DNA of 41,630 bases from an uncultured Candidatus Saccharibacteria bacterium (GCA_947302765.1 CAMYWN010000002.1:1-41630); one strand, 5' to 3'; positions 32,839 to 41,630 are shown, counted from the stretch's first letter. Numbers and translations: made by a program. Notes: generated from the sequence alone by a model not told the origin.

Positions 32839-33312
32839 TTAGACCCGTTTCACCTTCACCATTGCAGGGCGGAGCACCTCTCCTTGATAATAGTACCCAG
32901 TCCTTAGAGTCTCTGCCACTACTTCCTTTTCACCGTCGCCCTCTACCATTACCGCATCATGAATGCCCGGGTTAAATTCCGTCCCTTCATCTGAAACTAT
33001 CTTAGCAAGTTCCAACTCCTTCATCGTCTTCGCTAACACCCCGGATACTGGACCTAGCTCATTCTTATAGCTCGCCACCGCTCTATCTATATCGTCAATT
33101 AGTGGCAAAAACCTCATAACCGTCGCAAACTTCGCCGTCTTAGCCGCATTTTCGCGTTGTACCTCCACCTGCTTACGATAGTTCTCAAAATCTGCCCTCG
33201 TTCGCTGCAAATCGTTAGTCAGCTCAGCAATTTTTGCTTTAGACTCTTCTGAAATTTTAGTAATTTCCGCTTCAAAATCACCCTTGCCTTGTGTTTTTTC
33301 TACTTTTTTCAT
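32839..33312 (-). CDS. grpE: Nucleotide exchange factor GrpE
   Basis: 157 aa. N-terminal long helix/coiled coil (ITKISEESKAKIAELTNDLQ) with RTRADFENYRKQVEVQ, then the C-terminal beta-wing domain (EGTEFNPGIHDAVMVE, VAETLRTGYYYQGEVLRPAMVKV), as in GrpE proteins that release ADP from DnaK. ATG overlaps the hrcA stop by 4 nt and has SD GGAGGAAGG. dnaK and dnaJ do not follow here, so the chaperone operon is split. Confidence 0.96.
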   Translation of the reverse strand: MKKVEKTQGKGDFEAEITKISEESKAKIAELTNDLQRTRADFENYRKQVEVQRENAAKTAKFATVMRFLPLIDDIDRAVASYKNELGPVSGVLAKTMKELELAKIVSDEGTEFNPGIHDAVMVEGDGEKEVVAETLRTGYYYQGEVLRPAMVKVKRV

Positions 33313-34046
33313 AATCCTTCCTCCAACATATTACCGGCATATTTTACCAGTGACATTACTTTTAAATAATCTTGCCTTGTCGGCCCTAGCACCCCGATAT
33401 AGCTTCTATCCGAAAAAGGCGAACGAAACTTCGATATAATCAAAGATACCTGTGAATTCCTTCCAATCGGGTTTTCCTGTCCAATAAAGATATTCAGTGG
33501 CTCACCCGGCGCCGCCTCCATCAACCACGGCTCCAGATTATCCAGTAGTTTTGCCACCGCCTGCACGCGGTTATTATCTAAAAACTCCGGTTGCGTAAAA
33601 AGCTTAGATATCCCTGCTAAATACAGCTGCCCTCCTATCGTCGCTAGCCCCAAATTCCCAGTCAAATCCACCAACACATCCACCGCCCGCCGAATCGCCG
33701 CATCAGCCCGCGACTGCGAGCTCACTCGTACTTGCAGAGCATGTTCTCCCCGCTCAAACGACCGTTGTCTCATTTCTCTCTTTTCAATATCGCCCAGTTG
33801 CTCCCTATTATCACTGATATGGTTCACATAAAAACGATATCCCGCATCAGTAGGCACGCGTCCCGCCGAAGTGTGCGGCTGCGCCACTAAACCAAGCGCC
33901 TCCAATCTTGCCATCTCGGCCCGAATTGTTGCCGGAGATACACCAAACAGCTTCGCCATTGTCATACTGCCTACCGGCGCAGCCGTCTCCGCATATTCTT
34001 CCACTACCTGACAGAGAATCTGTCTCTGTCTTTTTGTTATTTCCAT
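33309..34046 (-). CDS. hrcA: Heat-inducible transcription repressor HrcA
   Basis: 245 aa, shorter than the usual about 340. Winged-helix N-terminus is intact (ITKRQRQILCQVVEEYAETAAPVGS, SPATIRAEMARLEALGLVAQPHTSAGRVPT; shown here as SPATIRAEMARLEALGL and TSAGRVPTDAGYRFYV). The GAF-like and dimerisation parts are condensed; the C-terminus retains GVLGPTRQDYLKVMSLVKY. Start at 34046 rather than eight codons upstream, because TATAAT ends six bases before it (leaderless). A CIRCE operator overlaps the -35 area. Confidence 0.94.
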   Translation of the reverse strand: MEITKRQRQILCQVVEEYAETAAPVGSMTMAKLFGVSPATIRAEMARLEALGLVAQPHTSAGRVPTDAGYRFYVNHISDNREQLGDIEKREMRQRSFERGEHALQVRVSSQSRADAAIRRAVDVLVDLTGNLGLATIGGQLYLAGISKLFTQPEFLDNNRVQAVAKLLDNLEPWLMEAAPGEPLNIFIGQENPIGRNSQVSLIISKFRSPFSDRSYIGVLGPTRQDYLKVMSLVKYAGNMLEEGL

Positions 34047-34052
34047 AACTAC

Positions 34053-34058
34053 ATTATA
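34053..34058 (-). promoter_or_regulatory. -10 of leaderless hrcA-grpE
   Basis: Minus-strand TATAAT six bases before hrcA ATG; unlike the others it lacks the TGN extension. Confidence 0.65.
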
Positions 34059-34063
34059 CAAAA

Positions 34064-34090
34064 TTAGCACCCAGAATGCAAGAGTGCTAA
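34064..34090. promoter_or_regulatory. CIRCE operator
   Basis: TTAGCACCC-N9-GAGTGCTAA against the consensus TTAGCACTC-N9-GAGTGCTAA (one mismatch). It spans the -35 position of the hrcA promoter, so HrcA should repress its own operon. Confidence 0.93.
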
Positions 34091-34211: not shown

Positions 34212-34835
34212 ATGGAATCAAAAATCGAAGTTATCAAACAATGGCTAGGCGCAGGCTCTATCAATATTTTTGGCCTCCCGATGTCAGGTAAAGACACTCA
34301 AGGCATCAAACTAGCCGAAACTCTAGGCGCCAAATTTCTTTCTTCTGGCATCATTATCCGCGCCATGGAAGCAAAAACCAATAAATCTTATACCGCCTCT
34401 GGCGCTCTCACTCCCACCGACGTCTTCTACGAGTGGGTTCTACCATATTTTGAACGCCCCGATCTCTTCCGCACCCCCCTCATCCTATCCTCCATCGGGC
34501 GCTGGTCAGGTGAGGAAAACCCAGTCATGTCCGTCGCCGCAGGCGCCGGTCACCCAATCATGGCCGCCATTATCCTCGATTTATCCGAGGCCGATATCAA
34601 TGAAAGATTCACAAAATCCAAAGAACTAAATGATCGCGGCAACCGTTCAGACGATCAAACCCCGGCAATCTTCCAAAATCGCATTAAAGAATTCCGCGAA
34701 AAAACCATCCCAGTTATCCAGCACTACAACGAACTCGGCCTCCTCATCAGAGTTAGAGGCGACCAACCTCGCGACGCTGTCTTTAATGAGATAATCGCAA
34801 AGCTCTACGAAAAAGCCTTACAAGCTCGCTCCTAA
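34212..34835 (+). CDS. Adenylate kinase-like nucleoside monophosphate kinase
   Basis: 207 aa. P-loop INIFGLPMSGKDTQG (residues about 17-31), then a core of the short-LID NMP kinase type, with NDRGNRSDDQTPAIFQNRIK matching the R-x-DD lid/arginine region and VIQHYNELGLLIRVRGDQP near the end. Expected to phosphorylate (d)AMP or another NMP. It is divergent from typical Adk: an N-terminal extension precedes the P-loop, which has GLPMSGKD in place of GxPGSGKG, and the AMP-binding part is altered. Another adk may exist elsewhere. Its last 53 nt overlap the convergent lamin-tail gene. Confidence 0.8.
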   Translation: MESKIEVIKQWLGAGSINIFGLPMSGKDTQGIKLAETLGAKFLSSGIIIRAMEAKTNKSYTASGALTPTDVFYEWVLPYFERPDLFRTPLILSSIGRWSGEENPVMSVAAGAGHPIMAAIILDLSEADINERFTKSKELNDRGNRSDDQTPAIFQNRIKEFREKTIPVIQHYNELGLLIRVRGDQPRDAVFNEIIAKLYEKALQARS

Positions 34836-36162
34836 ATTCGTAGGCCAAATATAATACACCTACTAAGACTACAATCCCTACAATCCACCAAGCTACGAAT
34901 GACGATTCGCCCTCATTCTCTGATGGTTTCAATTCGTAGTCCGCCCCCTTATTCTCCACAATCTTACGGCAACGATTTGTCTCCGGATTTAAATAATAAC
35001 CCTCCTTACATTCCTTTTTTGCCGACTCTTGAGGTATATTTCTGCACCGGCCAGTCAGAATATTCAAATATTGACCTTCGGGACATGTTTTTACTGCCAC
35101 GCTTGTTACTTTTACGCAATTTCCAGTCTCTTCATTAATTACTTTCCCCTCCTCACAGGTTTTGTATTCCTGATAAACATTCCCAGCTCCCGGCGTAGGA
35201 GCATATGTCGTCCTCCATGTCTCCTCCCCCTTCGCATCGTATCCAATCAGGGCGTAAGCCGTCCCCTTCCTCTGTCCGTTATAATAATCTAGCTTGTCAA
35301 CCACCTCCCCATCCACATCTATTAACTCAATGGTATTCTTATTTGTCGGATTTTTCGTCAAAGCAAAATCTCGTGGATAATAAGCCATGTACCCTTCCGG
35401 CTTTACTATTCCCATAAGGTCATAACTTTTATTCTTATATTTTAGATTACAACCGTCCAATAACACTTGCTCCGAGCCAGAATTATATATTTCTATAAAC
35501 TGCTCCGTTCTTGCCGTATCGTAATAACTTAATATCTCTGAAAACTGCAAGCTTCTACACTGCGGTAGCAATTTATCGTCACTTTCGTTCACCTCCTCTT
35601 TTATCAGAAAAGCCTTTGCATCATAAATCGCCTCATACTCCTTAACGTGCTCAAATAAATTAGTTTCCACATTCCGTACCAAAACCGTTGGCTCAGCCGA
35701 TTTAAAATCCTTATAACATTCATCCTTTCCCGTCCAACACACCTTATCTATTACTTCATCTCCCCTTTTTATAGTCAAACCCGCCCGAAAAGCCAGCGTC
35801 TTTGTGTAGTTCATAGCGGCTAGCTCGTTCTCGGGCGAGCTAGCCAAACGAAGGAGTATGCTCTCGCCAGTCAAAAAACTATTCTCGGGAAACTCCACCA
35901 AAACCGAGTCGTTCCCGCTTGAGTTAGTATAGCCTATAGTTATGCCAGCGAGCGAAATCATTTCGTCGGAGCTATTCTTGCCAATTTCAATCATTTCTCC
36001 GACATTACTTTTGCCGTCAATCGTATATCCAGGATTAATTGCTTTTATATATATTTCTGGCAAATCACTATTTACTTCTACCGCAAATACACGACAACAC
36101 ATCGCTATCAAAGCAATCATTAAGCCACACATTAAGACGACAATTCTATTTTTTCTTTTCAT
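34783..36162 (-). CDS. Lamin-tail-domain surface protein with Cys-rich repeats
   Basis: 459 aa. Signal peptide (1-27), two lamin-tail-like beta-sandwich domains (about 30-150: EIYIKAINPGY...EMIEIGKNSSDEMISLAG; and about 200-325: LQFSEILSYYD...QFIEIYNSGSEQVLLDG), then three copies of a C-x2-G-x3-N-x2-T-x2-C-x-x motif (CEEGKVINEETGNC, CPEGQYLNILTGRC, CKEGYYLNPETNRC), a linker and a C-terminal TM helix (about 427-447) with a basic tail. Displayed on the surface; adhesion is a guess. No SD is evident before the ATG. Confidence 0.8.
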   Translation of the reverse strand: MKRKNRIVVLMCGLMIALIAMCCRVFAVEVNSDLPEIYIKAINPGYTIDGKSNVGEMIEIGKNSSDEMISLAGITIGYTNSSGNDSVLVEFPENSFLTGESILLRLASSPENELAAMNYTKTLAFRAGLTIKRGDEVIDKVCWTGKDECYKDFKSAEPTVLVRNVETNLFEHVKEYEAIYDAKAFLIKEEVNESDDKLLPQCRSLQFSEILSYYDTARTEQFIEIYNSGSEQVLLDGCNLKYKNKSYDLMGIVKPEGYMAYYPRDFALTKNPTNKNTIELIDVDGEVVDKLDYYNGQRKGTAYALIGYDAKGEETWRTTYAPTPGAGNVYQEYKTCEEGKVINEETGNCVKVTSVAVKTCPEGQYLNILTGRCRNIPQESAKKECKEGYYLNPETNRCRKIVENKGADYELKPSENEGESSFVAWWIVGIVVLVGVLYLAYEFRSELVRLFRRALRLSH

Positions 36163-36221: not shown

Positions 36222-36923
36222 ATGAGTGTTTTCGCCTCTATCGGAATCGTTATCCTGTCTATGCTAATCATGTCGTCTCTCCAAATCGTACCTGGAGTTT
36301 TTGCTTTGTTTTATCATTACGCCCTTGGCAAACGCTCACGCCGCAAGGCTTCCATATTAGGGCTCTTTTTTATTCTAGGTACCGAAGTTATCTCTGCTTG
36401 CCTTTTCCTTTCCTCCTATTATCTAGTAAACCTCTTGTTTCTCGGCGAAGCTCGACCAGAAAATAGTTTCGTTGTCTGGCTAGCCGCCGGAGTTACTCTA
36501 GCATTAGCATTTTCGAGCTTCTTCTTTTATTATCATAAAGGCTCCACTACTACTTTTCTATCCAGAAAATACGCCAAATCCCTCCATCGCTATGCCACAA
36601 AAACCAATCGCCTATCCGACGCTTTCACACTTGGCGCACTTTCAAATGTCTGCGAACTCCCTTTTACACTTCCTCTGTTTATTATTACAGCAATCGAAAT
36701 CATGGAGATGTCAGCCGCATATGTCGCCAACGACCTCCTTACCGTCTTATACATTATCACCCCCACCATTCCACTTTTTATCATTTATTACAAATATCAT
36801 ACTCACCACAACCTTGCCGACATTTTAAGATCGCGCGCCAAAGAAAAGACCTTCACAAAATTTATTATCAGTTTTAGTTATCTAATAATCGCATTATTAA
36901 TTATAATCTTCAGGGCAATTTAA
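36222..36923 (+). CDS. Polytopic membrane protein, CcdA/DsbD or LysE-like
   Basis: 233 aa with six hydrophobic helices, internal two-fold pattern and the motif FTLGALSNVCELPFTLPLFI, which resembles the Gx(S/N)xCxxP segment of CcdA/DsbD-type electron conduits; the paired second Cys of CcdA is absent. A LysE-superfamily transporter is the alternative. Start chosen six bases after TATAAT; the frame is open 61 codons upstream but that part overlaps the divergent gene's start. First gene of a tight operon: the next ATG is one base after the stop. Confidence 0.65.
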   Translation: MSVFASIGIVILSMLIMSSLQIVPGVFALFYHYALGKRSRRKASILGLFFILGTEVISACLFLSSYYLVNLLFLGEARPENSFVVWLAAGVTLALAFSSFFFYYHKGSTTTFLSRKYAKSLHRYATKTNRLSDAFTLGALSNVCELPFTLPLFIITAIEIMEMSAAYVANDLLTVLYIITPTIPLFIIYYKYHTHHNLADILRSRAKEKTFTKFIISFSYLIIALLIIIFRAI

Positions 36924-36924
36924 A

Positions 36925-37164
36925 ATGGAAGAATTCGATCTCGACAAAATCACTAAAGCACTAAAAATCGACGCCAAAGCTATAGGCATACCCTCTGGTG
37001 CCGCCGAAGATTTTATCCAGAAGTCCCTTAAAGCCGCCACAAAAAAGCTTAGCACAAAAACTATCATTACAGAAAAAGATCTACAACGTACCCTAGCCAA
37101 AGAATTAAAAAAATACCATCAAGATTTAGCTTATGTTTATGAAAATCGTGATACAATTATATAA
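36925..37164 (+). CDS. Orphan ATP-cone-like small protein
   Basis: 79 aa. MEEFDLDKITKAL, AEDFIQKSLKAATKKL, ITEKDLQRTLAKEL and LAYVYENRDTI follow the order of ATP-cone domains (FD+xKI..., aexI..v, It..eIq..Ve..L, A..Yi.yR), which elsewhere sense ATP/dATP in ribonucleotide reductase or NrdR. The first beta-strands with the VxKRDG nucleotide-binding signature are missing, so nucleotide binding is doubtful. Located one base after the membrane protein and two before the oxidoreductase. Confidence 0.6.
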   Translation: MEEFDLDKITKALKIDAKAIGIPSGAAEDFIQKSLKAATKKLSTKTIITEKDLQRTLAKELKKYHQDLAYVYENRDTII

Positions 37165-37166
37165 AG

Positions 37167-38534
37167 ATGGGCAAAAAATACGATTTTAAATACATAGTCA
37201 TAGGCAGTGGCCCAGCCGGCAGTGCTGCAGCCTTAACTCTTGGCAAAGCCAAAAAACGTGTCGCCCTCGTCGAAGGACGTTATTTTGGTGGCTCAAACCT
37301 CAACACTCGTGACATCCCCTATGCTGTTGCGCTGGATTTTTCCCACACATATTCCAAAGCACGTTCACTCCCAGAATTTGGGCACCAAGATTTAACCTTT
37401 AATTTTTCCACTATTGCTTCTCGTGAGCTTAAAGCTATCGTCAATGCCGGCGGTAACAATCAAAAGCTCTACGAAGAATCCGGCATAATTTGTTTCAATG
37501 GTTTTGCTAACTTTCTTGACCCTCATACTATTGCTATCGGTAATCGCAGAATTACCTCAGAGAATTTCATCATCGCTACTGGCTCACACCTCAAAATTAG
37601 CGAAATTTCTGGCACCGAAACCGTCGGATTCTTATCCCCCGAAACTGCAATTAAAACTAGACGTCTTCCCAAAGTTCTCGCTATCGTTGGCGGCGGTTCC
37701 ACCGGTTGCGAAATCGCCTCGTTTTATGCGGAACTTGGTGTCAAAGTAATTCTATTTGAATTCGCCGAACGTCTCCTCCCCAAGGAAGATCAAGAAGTCG
37801 GAGAAACTATCTCGAACTACTTCACACAAGAATTAGGTATGTCCGTCTTTACCAGCACCAAAGTCGTCGCCATTCAAGAAGACAGCTTTAGTAAATCCGT
37901 TATTTTCCGCTTCGAAAACCAAGAAAAACTCATCCGCGTAGACAATATAGTCCTAGCCACCGGTAGCGAACCTAACTTAGATTGCGGCCTCGAAAACGCC
38001 AAAGTCAAATACAAAAACTCCGGCATTGTTGTTAATAAACACTTTGAAACCACAGCCAAACACATTTACGCCATCGGAGATTGTATCAGCACCGAATCTT
38101 CCACTGAGCGCGCCTACACCGAGGGTCTCACTCTCGCCACTAACCTCATCCATAAGTCAAAAAACATCCTCAACTATCATGGCTTCATTCGTCAAACTAA
38201 TACCTTCCCAGAAGTCGCCACTATTGGCTATAGCGAAGACGATCTAATTAAACGCGATCGCAAATACAAAAAAGCCATCATCAAACTAGACGAGATCCCA
38301 GCAAGCAAGATTTATAATTTCAACTATGGTTTCATCAAGCTCTTGTCTGATAAGAATAATCGCCTCATCGGCGCCAGCCTCGTCTGTCCTAACGCTAGCC
38401 TTATCGCCAACGAAGTTTCTGTTGTCATCAGACATCACCTCACGGCTCTCGAGTTAGCTAGCACCCCCCATATCATGAATAGTTTCAATTATGCTCTTAA
38501 ACTAGCTGCGAAAAAAATAGTCGAAAAAAAATAA
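37167..38534 (+). CDS. FAD/NAD(P) disulfide-oxidoreductase-family protein lacking the redox cysteines
   Basis: 455 aa, full length for dihydrolipoamide dehydrogenase/glutathione reductase relatives. FAD site VIGSGPAGSAAAL (11-23), NAD(P) site AIVGGGSTGCEIASFY, second FAD motif IYAIGDC, and the C-terminal dimer domain with NTFPEVATIGYSE and TPHIMNSFNYAL. The CxxxxC region is GGSNLNTRDIPYA, where Asn44 and Asp49 stand in place of both Cys, and the HPT base motif is also altered. It therefore cannot be a thiol-disulfide enzyme of the normal kind; a transhydrogenase, quinone or flavin reductase is possible. Confidence 0.85.
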   Translation: MGKKYDFKYIVIGSGPAGSAAALTLGKAKKRVALVEGRYFGGSNLNTRDIPYAVALDFSHTYSKARSLPEFGHQDLTFNFSTIASRELKAIVNAGGNNQKLYEESGIICFNGFANFLDPHTIAIGNRRITSENFIIATGSHLKISEISGTETVGFLSPETAIKTRRLPKVLAIVGGGSTGCEIASFYAELGVKVILFEFAERLLPKEDQEVGETISNYFTQELGMSVFTSTKVVAIQEDSFSKSVIFRFENQEKLIRVDNIVLATGSEPNLDCGLENAKVKYKNSGIVVNKHFETTAKHIYAIGDCISTESSTERAYTEGLTLATNLIHKSKNILNYHGFIRQTNTFPEVATIGYSEDDLIKRDRKYKKAIIKLDEIPASKIYNFNYGFIKLLSDKNNRLIGASLVCPNASLIANEVSVVIRHHLTALELASTPHIMNSFNYALKLAAKKIVEKK

Positions 38535-38536
38535 AC

Positions 38537-38550
38537 CCAGATAATTCTGG
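38537..38550 (-). terminator. Possible terminator of tRNA-fMet overlapping its CCA end
   Basis: CCAGA (38537-38541) / TCTGG (38546-38550), followed on the minus strand by a T-rich run formed by the A-run at the end of the oxidoreductase gene. Confidence 0.4.
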
Positions 38551-38624
38551 TTGCGGGGGTTGGATTTGAACCAACGACCTTTTGGTTATGAGCCAAACGA
38601 GCTACCAGGCTGCTCTACCCCGCG
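38548..38624 (-). tRNA. Initiator tRNA-fMet (anticodon CAT)
   Basis: Acceptor CGCGGGG...CCCCGCA with the C1xA72 mismatch typical of initiators; D-arm AGCCTGGTAGCTC, anticodon loop CTCATAA, CCA encoded. The anticodon stem is TTTGG/CCAAA, so only pairs 30-40 and 31-39 are G-C, while 29-41 is U-A instead of the conserved G-C. Confidence 0.95.
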
Positions 38625-38767: not shown

Positions 38768-39907
38768 CTATTCTTTAAAGTTATGCTCCGTCGTCACTGA
38801 AAAGTCTTTCCACAAGCCATCATCGCCCAGGATTAATGGGCCACCTATCACTAAGTCACCCTGCCCTTCTGCGTCTAGAGTCACTTTAACCCTTTTATAC
38901 AAATCGTTTGCCCTACCTGTCGAATCCACCACAAATTGATTCTCAATACTAACCGGCTCGTCACCATCTTTAAGATAATTAATACTCACAGGTTCCTCAT
39001 TATTGTTGCCACTATCGAAGCTCATAATCGCTATTTCAAACAGACCGTCCGCTTTCTTTACCGAATCACTCCCATTATAAACGGCAGGTAATTCTATAAT
39101 AGCCTCACATTTATCAGCGCCCTCATTACAGCTAATAGTACGCATCTCATTCTGGACAGTCTTGTCATTGGACTTCATTACAACCTCCTTAGAAACAGAC
39201 CCATCACCCCCAGTATCGCCACTAGTCAAAAATACTGTACCCAAGTTAGTCCCAGTCTCGTCATTATCACCATCTAATGACGGAAAAGTAAAATCATCAA
39301 AATTAAAGCCACTCGGTGCCTGCAAAATCGTCACGGATAATTTAGAATTTCCGCCCCACCGGACCTTTATCTTTTTTATTTCGCTCGCCGAACCGGATGC
39401 GAACACTGGTTTAAACACTGCTGTCTCATATGGCCGAAGACTCTTAGTTTGTTCTTGCGGCTGATTATTTATCTTCACGCAGGTATAGTATTGCTGCATA
39501 TTATTCCCATTCCCATCTTCTTCTACCTCTATACCTACATTTGAAGTTACAGTTCGGCCAAGCATTTTGGCCACCATGTCACAATCAGGATTATTCATAT
39601 AATATAAGATATAGCTACAGGCACCACTATCGTCATTCGGTAGTCCCCCGTCAGGATTAACACTCGACGCTGCCGTGTATCCGGCCGCCTTGCAATTCTT
39701 ATAGTTCAGATACGCCAACTTAGCGTCTTCTACGCCAGCCATCGCCGCATCATAAGCAGACTGCGACAAATCCGCGTTCGAAGTTCGCTCCATTTGTGAA
39801 ACGATTAGCGTGGCAAAACTCGCCACGACAATAACAAGTATCAACGTAGATATCGCCACAATATAAAAAGACGCAGCACCTTTTCTCCTATCACCTAGAC
39901 TAATCAT
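38768..39907 (-). CDS. PilX-like pilus assembly protein
   Basis: 379 aa from ATG 39907 (SD GTGGAGGAAG; the frame is open 38 codons upstream inside the previous gene). The N-terminus GDRRKGAASFYIVAISTLILVIVVASF has the single hydrophobic helix and small-residue pattern of PilX-like minor pilins, followed by AAMAGVEDAKLAYLNY, typical of the helix continuation. The remaining about 300 residues are beta-rich with several Cys and low-complexity Asp/Gly/Ser stretches. The start overlaps the upstream pilin gene by 8 nt, indicating coupling. Ending of the operon lies near 38768, with no obvious terminator. Confidence 0.75.
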   Translation of the reverse strand: MISLGDRRKGAASFYIVAISTLILVIVVASFATLIVSQMERTSNADLSQSAYDAAMAGVEDAKLAYLNYKNCKAAGYTAASSVNPDGGLPNDDSGACSYILYYMNNPDCDMVAKMLGRTVTSNVGIEVEEDGNGNNMQQYYTCVKINNQPQEQTKSLRPYETAVFKPVFASGSASEIKKIKVRWGGNSKLSVTILQAPSGFNFDDFTFPSLDGDNDETGTNLGTVFLTSGDTGGDGSVSKEVVMKSNDKTVQNEMRTISCNEGADKCEAIIELPAVYNGSDSVKKADGLFEIAIMSFDSGNNNEEPVSINYLKDGDEPVSIENQFVVDSTGRANDLYKRVKVTLDAEGQGDLVIGGPLILGDDGLWKDFSVTTEHNFKE

Positions 39908-40874
39908 TTTTTCTTCCTCCACTCGCCAAAGCGGTAATATTAAATTTATTAATCGCACAAAAATCCAAATCATTCGCCCCGCCCGAAACCTTACAGTTTT
40001 CGTCATTGATATTAATCCCACTGTCTATCGTTCCAAGCGTAATCGATAGATTATACAAAGTTCCATCTCCAATCGCCGGCGTCTCAACGTCAAATCCATA
40101 CACCGCCACCTTGCTTTCATTCGTCAAAATCTCCGCCATATCTTCACCAATATCAAAACCATTATCTAGCGTGAACAGGATACTATCATTAATATCACTA
40201 GACTCAGCTCCACTGGGCCCATTATTAAAGTAACTAAACGCATCTCCTGGCGGATTAATCAAATCCCTACATACCGCTCTTTTCTCATCCTTAATTCTCA
40301 GTAAACGTCCACCCTTTTCCTTCCCCCAAATCTCTGTAAAACCGCCAGAGCTATTATCTTGTACCCTAAAGGAAAGCCCGTTCATCTCCGCACTATTACG
40401 ATCTTCCACTTCATAGTCACTATTGAAAAAATATCCCGAATTCCAGATGTACGAATAATTTCCCAGACACACCGCCCCATAAACTGGCACACCTTCAAAA
40501 ATCCTGTCTCCGCCCTTATAAATATCTCCCCTCTGAGACACCGCAATCAACCCCGCGCCATTATAATCCAAACATTTATCCTTGTCACTCCCATCCCCAT
40601 ACACCCCACGACACAAAGACTCAAAACTCATAATCATTGGCGCCTTATGTACAGTTGTTTTTATCTCCTCGGTCACCTCAGTACCTACAGTATTAACTAA
40701 ATTCAAGGTTATTCCTCTTCTATACGACGAAACCGCCCCATTAATCACAAACACAATAATAATTGAGAGAACTCCAATAAACGCCATTGATAAAGAAAGT
40801 TCGACCAAGGTAAATCCACTCCGAAATAATCGCTTTTTACTCCAATCGGACTGCTTCTTTTCAAAATATCTCAT
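39900..40874 (-). CDS. Type IV prepilin-like protein (PilW/PilV-like minor pilin)
   Basis: 324 aa. Class III signal: a basic leader of about 19 residues, then SGFTLVELSLSMAFIGVLSI with Gly/Phe cleavage site and Glu at +5, which prepilin peptidase (PilD) should cut and methylate. A long globular domain follows with Cys pairs (ESLCRGVYGDGSDKDKCLDY and NCKVSGG...FCAIN). Member of the minor-pilin operon; the neighbours start and stop within 8 nt of it. SD GGAGACG upstream. Confidence 0.88.
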   Translation of the reverse strand: MRYFEKKQSDWSKKRLFRSGFTLVELSLSMAFIGVLSIIIVFVINGAVSSYRRGITLNLVNTVGTEVTEEIKTTVHKAPMIMSFESLCRGVYGDGSDKDKCLDYNGAGLIAVSQRGDIYKGGDRIFEGVPVYGAVCLGNYSYIWNSGYFFNSDYEVEDRNSAEMNGLSFRVQDNSSGGFTEIWGKEKGGRLLRIKDEKRAVCRDLINPPGDAFSYFNNGPSGAESSDINDSILFTLDNGFDIGEDMAEILTNESKVAVYGFDVETPAIGDGTLYNLSITLGTIDSGININDENCKVSGGANDLDFCAINKFNITALASGGRKND

Positions 40875-40876
40875 CG

Positions 40877-41630
40877 CTACACACGTCTCCTACATCTATT
40901 ATTTCCAGAATCCATAATTACATCTATCCCAACGGCATTGCCCGCATTATTCGCAATTCTCACATCAGCACTAATCGCACTCGGGGCCCCATCAATTCCA
41001 TTTGGGTTAATACAAAAATCCACATCTTCATATGAAAACTTCAGATCATCTGCACGAAAAGCAGCCGATAACTCACTCTCCGTCATCGCTTTATTCGAAA
41101 ACAGCGTATGAACTTTACCAGAATACGGATGTCTAACTATCAAAATAGTCCCCTCAAAAGGTTTAGGACTAGAATCTCCTACAACCTTCTCCTGAACCCC
41201 CACCCCCCACTTTGGTGAATATGTTTCAATAACTCCAGCTAAAGCCTCCCCGCCTCCAGTACTCTCACCCGAATCATCACTATTCGCTGGGACCGTTGTA
41301 CTCAATCCCACAATTTGCAATAAAGCAGTCAATCCAGTATTTTCCATAACGTCAGCCATTTCAGGATTATTACGCACCCACCAATCAGGATCTTTACCCA
41401 CCAACGTATAAACACAAAAACCTTGCTCCGTCTCCAAACCAGCCCCCTTCAAATGTTCCAAGCATCCGCTACTATCACCACTCCCGCTATCGCCGCCATC
41501 GCTATCACCACCACTACCCTCATCATCGTTCTCCTCGCTATCAAAAACTATCATCTTACCATACACTACCGTGTCTTCGCTTCTACCGTAACCCGACCCC
41601 TGCACATTTAGCACCCCATCATAAACACCT
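40877..41630 (-). CDS. Pilin-operon protein, 5' part beyond the window
   Basis: The frame is open to the window edge, so this is the C-terminal portion (at least 250 aa). The visible part is Gly/Ser/Asp-rich at first (DSEENDDEGSGGDSDGGDS) and contains three or four Cys (SSGCLEHLKG, FCVYTLVG, FCINPNG, NRCRRRV). DGVLNVQGSGYG at the start and DVRIANNAGNAVGIDVIMDS near the end fit a minor-pilin-type beta domain, but the N-terminal prepilin signal would lie outside. The stop is two bases before the next ATG. Confidence 0.6.
   Translation of the reverse strand, partial: GVYDGVLNVQGSGYGRSEDTVVYGKMIVFDSEENDDEGSGGDSDGGDSGSGDSSGCLEHLKGAGLETEQGFCVYTLVGKDPDWWVRNNPEMADVMENTGLTALLQIVGLSTTVPANSDDSGESTGGGEALAGVIETYSPKWGVGVQEKVVGDSSPKPFEGTILIVRHPYSGKVHTLFSNKAMTESELSAAFRADDLKFSYEDVDFCINPNGIDGAPSAISADVRIANNAGNAVGIDVIMDSGNNRCRRRV

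Follow-up and report, generated by a model that had tools for sequence, protein, structure and literature searches.

What can an operon do for its bacterium once its redox partners have lost the cysteines that define them? The question is raised by a three-gene set (the trio) in the DNA of an uncultured Candidatus Saccharibacteria bacterium, of which a stretch of 41,630 nucleotides (the window) was analysed; the genome comprises 0.92 Mb in 110 contigs and is 87% complete. ORF calling placed the trio at 36222-38534, with all genes on the plus strand and separated by 1 and 2 bp. The original prediction, made from the sequence, described a disulfide-reductase homologue without redox Cys, an orphan truncated ATP-cone and a six-TM CcdA-like protein, which together might donate electrons from NAD(P)H to a membrane partner under gating by nucleotide level. 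The features of the locus, in window coordinates, are as follows.

36222-36923, plus strand: six-TM membrane protein of LysE/CcdA fold, 233 aa, without conserved Cys (from the ORF, AF2 model and hhalign)
36285-36287, plus strand: Ile22 of the membrane protein, at the site of the TM1 Cys (INPCAIG) of thiol-complete relatives
36663-36665, plus strand: Phe148 of the membrane protein, at the site of the TM4 Cys (VELPCTGAP); Glu145 of the same motif is kept
36925-37164, plus strand: cone protein, a 79-aa helical ATP-cone remnant without the N-terminal VxKR nucleotide hairpin
37167-38534, plus strand: flavoprotein (FAD/NADH) of class I disulfide-reductase fold, 455 aa, without redox thiols
37203-37220, plus strand: FAD-binding GxGxxG of the flavoprotein, residues 13-18
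37296-37313, plus strand: Asn44 to Asp49 of the flavoprotein, at the CxxxxC dithiol site
37689-37706, plus strand: NAD-binding GGGxxG of the flavoprotein, residues 175-180, with an acidic Glu198 after the second strand (NADH type)
38466-38483, plus strand: PHIMNS of the flavoprotein, residues 434-439, at the HxHPT site, of which the first His (435) is the sole residue kept
38548-38624, opposite strand: tRNA-Met gene 3' of the trio

Upstream of the trio, the window encodes an HrcA-like heat-shock repressor (33309-34070, minus strand; judged by eye), a 207-aa adenylate-kinase-like protein (34212-34835, plus strand; Pfam ADK 8e-10) and, divergent from the trio, a Lamin-tail-domain (LTD) protein anchored in the membrane by its C-terminus (34783-36162, minus strand); LTD-type genes were found near the trio in 11 of the 13 loci of group g1. 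Three pseudopilin-like proteins in the style of type IV pilus minor pilins are encoded downstream (38768-41614, minus strand), and relatives of these genes were seen in nine same-genus loci with long flanks. The best matches with trio-type flavoproteins in named genomes belonged to Candidatus Saccharibacteria, the closest of them largely from the rumen or gut of ruminants.

The flavoprotein is homologous over its whole length, dimerisation domain included, to the class I disulfide reductases (Pfam Pyr_redox_2 8e-52, Pyr_redox_dim 3e-14), and the solved structures closest to it are those of lipoamide dehydrogenases and mercuric reductases. It shares their FAD and NAD sites but lacks CxxxxC and HPTxxE and scores far under the family cut-offs (273.4 bits for TIGR01350, lipoamide dehydrogenase, against a curated cut-off of 408.8). 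At the dithiol site it reads GGSNLNTRDIP versus GGTCLNVGCIP, which places Asn44 and Asp49 at the CxxxxC positions, as had been predicted; both dithiol Cys were missing from 30 of 30 same-genus flavoproteins (30 genomes including the window's, with relatives 40-66% identical to the window's protein), and Asp49 was retained in 27 of these. The predicted replacement of the HPT motif holds for the second His, the PT and the E, which are gone from the sequence TPHIMNSFN found where HxHPTxxE is expected, but not for the first His, which persists as His435. The FAD residues G13, G15, G18, E36 and D305 and the NAD residues G175, G177, G180 and E198 are each kept in 29-30 of the 30 genus members, as anticipated for intact FAD and NAD(P) sites. 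There is a good chance that the flavin of the window's flavoprotein can still be reduced by NADH. The flavin-adjacent lysine (residue 53, IPxK) is gone in 26 of the 30 members, and by analogy with other disulfide reductases its loss may have slowed the flavin chemistry.

The AF2 model of the membrane protein (pLDDT 89.5) contains six TMs with breaks within TM1 (helices 3-19/22-37) and TM4 (131-144/146-162). This agrees with the TM count first proposed, and the CcdA-like assignment is supported by hhalign, which aligned the window's protein to the CcdA-like proteins with Cys that the operon encodes in other genomes with a probability of 98.1 (E 1.3e-13). Among the membrane proteins, 4 of 29 members matched DsbD_2 (best 9e-4). 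The modelled six-TM fold with its breaks resembles that of the CcdA/DsbD relays of the LysE superfamily (PF02683, PF13386), and same-operon relatives elsewhere carry a single Cys in each of TM1 and TM4, as these relays do; the window's protein has neither Cys, the TM1 Cys being replaced by Ile22 and the TM4 Cys by Phe148, and no other Cys is conserved in it. A further difference is that the well-studied CcdA/DsbD systems are fed by thioredoxin, whereas the trio has NADH flavoprotein and ATP-cone genes next door. A Foldseek search of the model against the PDB returned no match with E below 0.001 (best E 0.04, with a low TM-score). Nor did profiles of the membrane proteins retrieve anything informative from the PDB sequences.

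The cone protein matched the Pfam ATP-cone (PF03477) weakly and in part, with 22.6 bits against a cut-off of 25.8 over profile positions 11-74 only, and Foldseek paired its AlphaFold model (pLDDT 79) with the NrdB ATP-cone in 5olk (probability 1.00, E 0.05), in keeping with the truncated orphan ATP-cone originally described. Searches of PDB sequences with the cone-protein profile returned chance matches alone (histones and others), and the full-length cone profile found none at E 0.01. Profile-profile comparison linked the window's cone to those of the Cys-containing operons (probability 98.8, E 5e-17). The VxKR motif, which from general background and its conservation within the operon we take to be the nucleotide hairpin of the ATP-cone, no published statement of such a motif having turned up in the ATP-cone literature searched for one, is absent from the cone proteins of the window's genus and kept in most other genera and in other families. 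Gating by nucleotide level was therefore rejected for the window's genus. The protein appears to share its helical core with the ATP-cones of ribonucleotide reductases and NrdR, and operons of other families encode the full cone including VxKR; it differs from them in standing alone, neither on a ribonucleotide reductase nor on a zinc ribbon, and in having lost the hairpin in the window.

The arrangement of the trio is conserved far beyond chance: of 30 loci from the genus, 28 have the cone and membrane genes beside that of the flavoprotein, which answers the synteny check proposed with the original prediction. One exception (G016) carries an insertion of about 2.6 kb, with the membrane gene near the flavoprotein gene and the cone present, and in the other (G030) the membrane gene is nearby but inverted and the cone was not detected. 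Across the window's family, the membrane gene was found in 100 of 107 genomes and the cone gene in 99 of 107, with coordinates that interlock with the flavoprotein gene (counts tallied by hand from tables in a survey of 295 genomes of the order). In the single unsaturated pair available (L032/L126, dS 0.18-0.20), omega was 0.063 for the flavoprotein, 0.036 for the membrane protein and 0.029 for the cone; these values, together with the retention of the genes, indicate that the trio is under purifying selection. Nearly all the Cys have been lost, yet the trio is kept under strong selection, and its present job therefore probably needs no thiols.

The nature of the ancestral system is suggested by thiol-complete operons in families f6, f12, f25, f26, f27 and f36, plus f3 (a contig-edge copy), which belong to the same order as the window (Candidatus Saccharibacteria). 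Their flavoprotein carries GGECPNYGCVPTK with both Cys, and IHAFPTWSE; their cone carries HIVKRAGHTEPYDERK, a full ATP-cone start with VxKR kept; and their membrane protein carries DSINPCAIGVL in TM1 and VELPCTGAPYL in TM4, one Cys in each, which is the arrangement of CcdA/DsbD. The ELPCTGAP segment resembles the PCT motif of DsbD. All eight Cys-operon cones scanned matched PF03477 (best 7.6e-12). One Cys-containing membrane protein matched DsbD_TM (3.6e-8), and a hit to the NCBIfam DsbD model, at 3e-6, fell far under that model's own cut-off. The SfLAP/GAP family (PF11139) was matched above its cut-off of 35 bits by Cys-containing relatives (40.1 bits), unlike the window's protein, which scored 18.5 bits and has no lipid-export context in view; DsbD and GAP are both families within the LysE superfamily (PMC4608589).

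Directly upstream of the Cys-containing membrane gene lies a gene for a membrane-anchored Cys/His protein with the conserved motifs GPVHWHADxExWxCG, HEHxDxxIHLEG, PPGDC and TDKLC, for which no Pfam family was matched (representative loci L082:8450-9505, L089:9631-10569, L098:8537-9487 and L221:6133-6837). In a survey of 159 genomes, this family was found in 21, essentially those with thiol-complete or eroded operons plus family f24; all 33 genomes surveyed from the window's family lacked it. It is likely that the Cys/His protein serves as the electron acceptor of the thiol-complete relay. A P-type cation ATPase gene usually lies beyond the Cys/His gene; the ATPase is about 880-1000 aa long and usually divergent (L089:10567-13287, L221:2731-5358), and genome G450 also has a gene for an MgtE-domain protein (L221:5345-5908). 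In G450, which belongs to another class of the phylum, the ATPase, the Cys/His protein, the CcdA-like protein and the cone are encoded in a row with no flavoprotein there, so the membrane-cone core may be older than the recruitment of the flavoprotein. In a genome of another Patescibacteria class (G324, L225), a CcdA-like gene is followed 0.7 kb downstream by a flavoprotein gene whose product matches the trio profile weakly and is perhaps thioredoxin-reductase-like.

When 66 flavoproteins were placed on a tree, those of the trio type grouped as a single clade (SH-aLRT 100) in which the earliest branches, like the outgroups, mostly carry CxxxxC, and the fewest changes required are seven for the flavoprotein thiols and four for the membrane thiols. 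Two genera at the base of the window's family (g29 and g35; loci L064 and L070) keep CxxxxC in the flavoprotein and already lack both membrane Cys, and because of these intermediates we infer that the membrane Cys were lost before the flavoprotein dithiol in this family. In the other genera of the family that were examined, the dithiol site is mostly Ser/Ala...Asp/Glu/Asn, and in the window's genus it is mostly Asn...Asp. Retention of CxxxxC by operon relatives had been named beforehand as the observation that would speak against the finding; it occurs outside the family and in the two basal genera, and in 0 of 30 members of the window's genus, a pattern that reflects a history of loss rather than a refutation.

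Erosion of the relay recurs elsewhere. In G084, the flavoprotein has Gly...Cys, the TM1 Cys is replaced by Tyr and the HWH motif of the Cys/His protein is damaged; in G057, flavoprotein, membrane protein and Cys/His protein are all damaged; and in G080, G052 and G095, the thiols of both partners are gone. The operon flavoprotein gene of G051 (L232:2813-3910) is far decayed, without GxGxxG, and one membrane Cys remains; a separate CcdA-like gene (APCILPLLPV) lies close by in this locus, at 726-1463. Cone and flavoprotein alone were detected in G037, G120 also shows erosion, and in G058 (family f24, L233) the Cys/His gene is followed by one for a divergent Cys-less membrane protein, with cone and flavoprotein not detected. 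Damage to several partners at once is as expected if the partners work together. An independent-pairs test for correlated Cys loss gave 2 pairs versus 0, in the expected direction and not significant; with two informative pairs alone, we claim no statistical proof of correlated loss. From homology and branching order, the trio is very likely a thiol-stripped descendant of a relay that ran from NADH through FAD and a dithiol to a CcdA-like transmembrane protein.

The working order of the ancestral relay can be pieced together from its parts. NADH would have reduced FAD in the disulfide-reductase-type flavoprotein, electrons would have passed through the CxxxxC dithiol to the Cys pair of the CcdA/DsbD-like membrane protein, and the last step would have been the membrane-anchored extracytoplasmic Cys/His protein, with the small ATP-cone subunit presumably adding nucleotide control. 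In the window's family, the membrane Cys were lost first and the flavoprotein dithiol next, the acceptor being absent from sampled members, and the cone of the window's genus has lost its nucleotide hairpin as well. The electron donor of the original prediction is well supported by sequence for the thiol-complete operon, where both partners have Cys pairs, but the window's trio can be no dithiol relay any more, because its membrane protein has also lost both CcdA Cys, a loss that the original prediction did not mention. The surviving proteins would still form a complex in which NADH reduces FAD, the flavin still turns over, and FADH2 hands electrons directly, without thiols, to a non-disulfide membrane acceptor; the LysE/CcdA-fold protein would provide the dock or channel, and the cone remnant would be the connector.

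Precedents for a flavoprotein of this kind exist. The Cys-less yeast protein Irc15p is rapidly reduced by NADH and passes electrons to ferricyanide, DCPIP and menadione and not to disulfides, and LpdA of M. tuberculosis, which has no working dithiol, is a quinone reductase without disulfide reductase activity (PMC6296175). Like the trio's flavoprotein, both are disulfide-reductase homologues without a working dithiol; they differ in that no membrane partner or ATP-cone operon has been described for them and in that their losses are independent of those in the trio. These precedents, together with the near-perfect FAD and NAD sites, favour an NADH-reducible docked flavoprotein. Judged from the sequences, the chances are about even that the trio is now such a flavoprotein, docked on the membrane protein and with a thiol-free electron output; that direct non-thiol electron transfer is its main function falls a little short of this.

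There are several potential alternatives to this explanation. The trio may transfer no electrons at all, NADH binding or flavin reduction instead reshaping the flavoprotein so that it gates a LysE-superfamily transporter through the cone remnant, with an ATP or dATP signal added by the cone in genera that keep VxKR. Exporters make up most of the LysE superfamily (PMC4608589), the membrane protein retains His32 in TM1, Glu145 in TM4 and the cytoplasmic Arg205/Lys209 despite the loss of its Cys, and Irc15p changes shape with NADH (PMC6296175); the best argument is the widespread loss of Lys53 in the genus, which is easier to reconcile with a sensor than with an enzyme. None of the solved transporters fits the membrane-protein model well and the window's genus has lost the nucleotide hairpin, and on balance we consider such a gate rather unlikely, although it is the main rival. 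A related reading, which can be offered tentatively, is that the whole relay has turned, family-wide, into a thiol-free NADH-responsive complex, either a sensor-gated LysE-type transporter or a thiol-independent electron output, with an undescribed ancestral system that would have combined a flavoprotein for NADH, a relay of the CcdA type, a subunit with an ATP-cone and acceptors from a new family of extracytoplasmic Cys/His proteins. Were the relay simply on its way out, the window would represent a late stage, and erosion does recur in the other lineages named above; but the Cys-less trio persists in 99 of 107 family genomes, its frames are intact, its FAD and NAD residues are nearly invariant and omega is 0.03-0.06 in the close pair. 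A pseudogene or relic was rejected on omega and retention and is very improbable.

The redox context of the genus bears on the acceptor. COX1 was found in 0 of 8 same-genus genomes tested and in 0 of 15 genomes with a thiol-complete trio, compared to 60 of 111 others outside the family (Fisher p 3e-5, uncorrected for kinship); since COX1 never accompanies the thiol-complete trio, the system appears to belong to lineages without that oxidase. Cytochrome bd, VKOR and DsbB were not found in 15 genomes of the window's genus, and with no quinone-using enzyme found there, it is doubtful that the trio passes electrons to quinone, the acceptor preferred by Irc15p and LpdA. An NDH-2-like NADH:quinone dehydrogenase supplying a terminal oxidase would accord with the quinone reduction by related Cys-less homologues (PMC6296175), but the COX1, cytochrome bd and VKOR surveys stand against it, and a separate single-subunit NADH dehydrogenase has been assigned to a respiring Saccharibacterium (PMC6031116); the respiratory reading was rejected, and we regard it as most improbable. 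The least credible reading is that the trio still relays thiols through other Cys or another thiol partner. An extracytoplasmic DsbA-like CPGC protein is kept in the window's genome, where (at 87% completeness) no DsbD_TM match was found, and VKOR and DsbB were not detected either, which would speak for this reading. No conserved Cys is present in the membrane protein, however, and the conserved Cys181 and Cys109 of the flavoprotein lie away from the dithiol site, and most of the family's other genera have Val/Ile in place of Cys181. DsbA-like CxxC proteins of the genus were recorded at L239 (G000:C51) and L240-L242.

The electron-transferring, docked flavoprotein is the reading preferred here. 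The window's trio lacks the defining residues of disulfide reductases, of CcdA/DsbD and of ATP-cones, and the ancestral system had all of them. In a limited literature search covering few subscription journals, neither the trio nor its thiol-complete form was found described. The host group consists of ultra-small bacteria, and related genomes in it carry a four-gene set that resembles a pathway for electrons from NADH to the outside and that includes a free-standing ATP-cone and an acceptor family as yet without a name. Cysteines are the defining feature of CcdA/DsbD-type thiol relays, and their stepwise loss in two partners, with the operon kept and selected, amounts to a natural experiment on thiol-free function.
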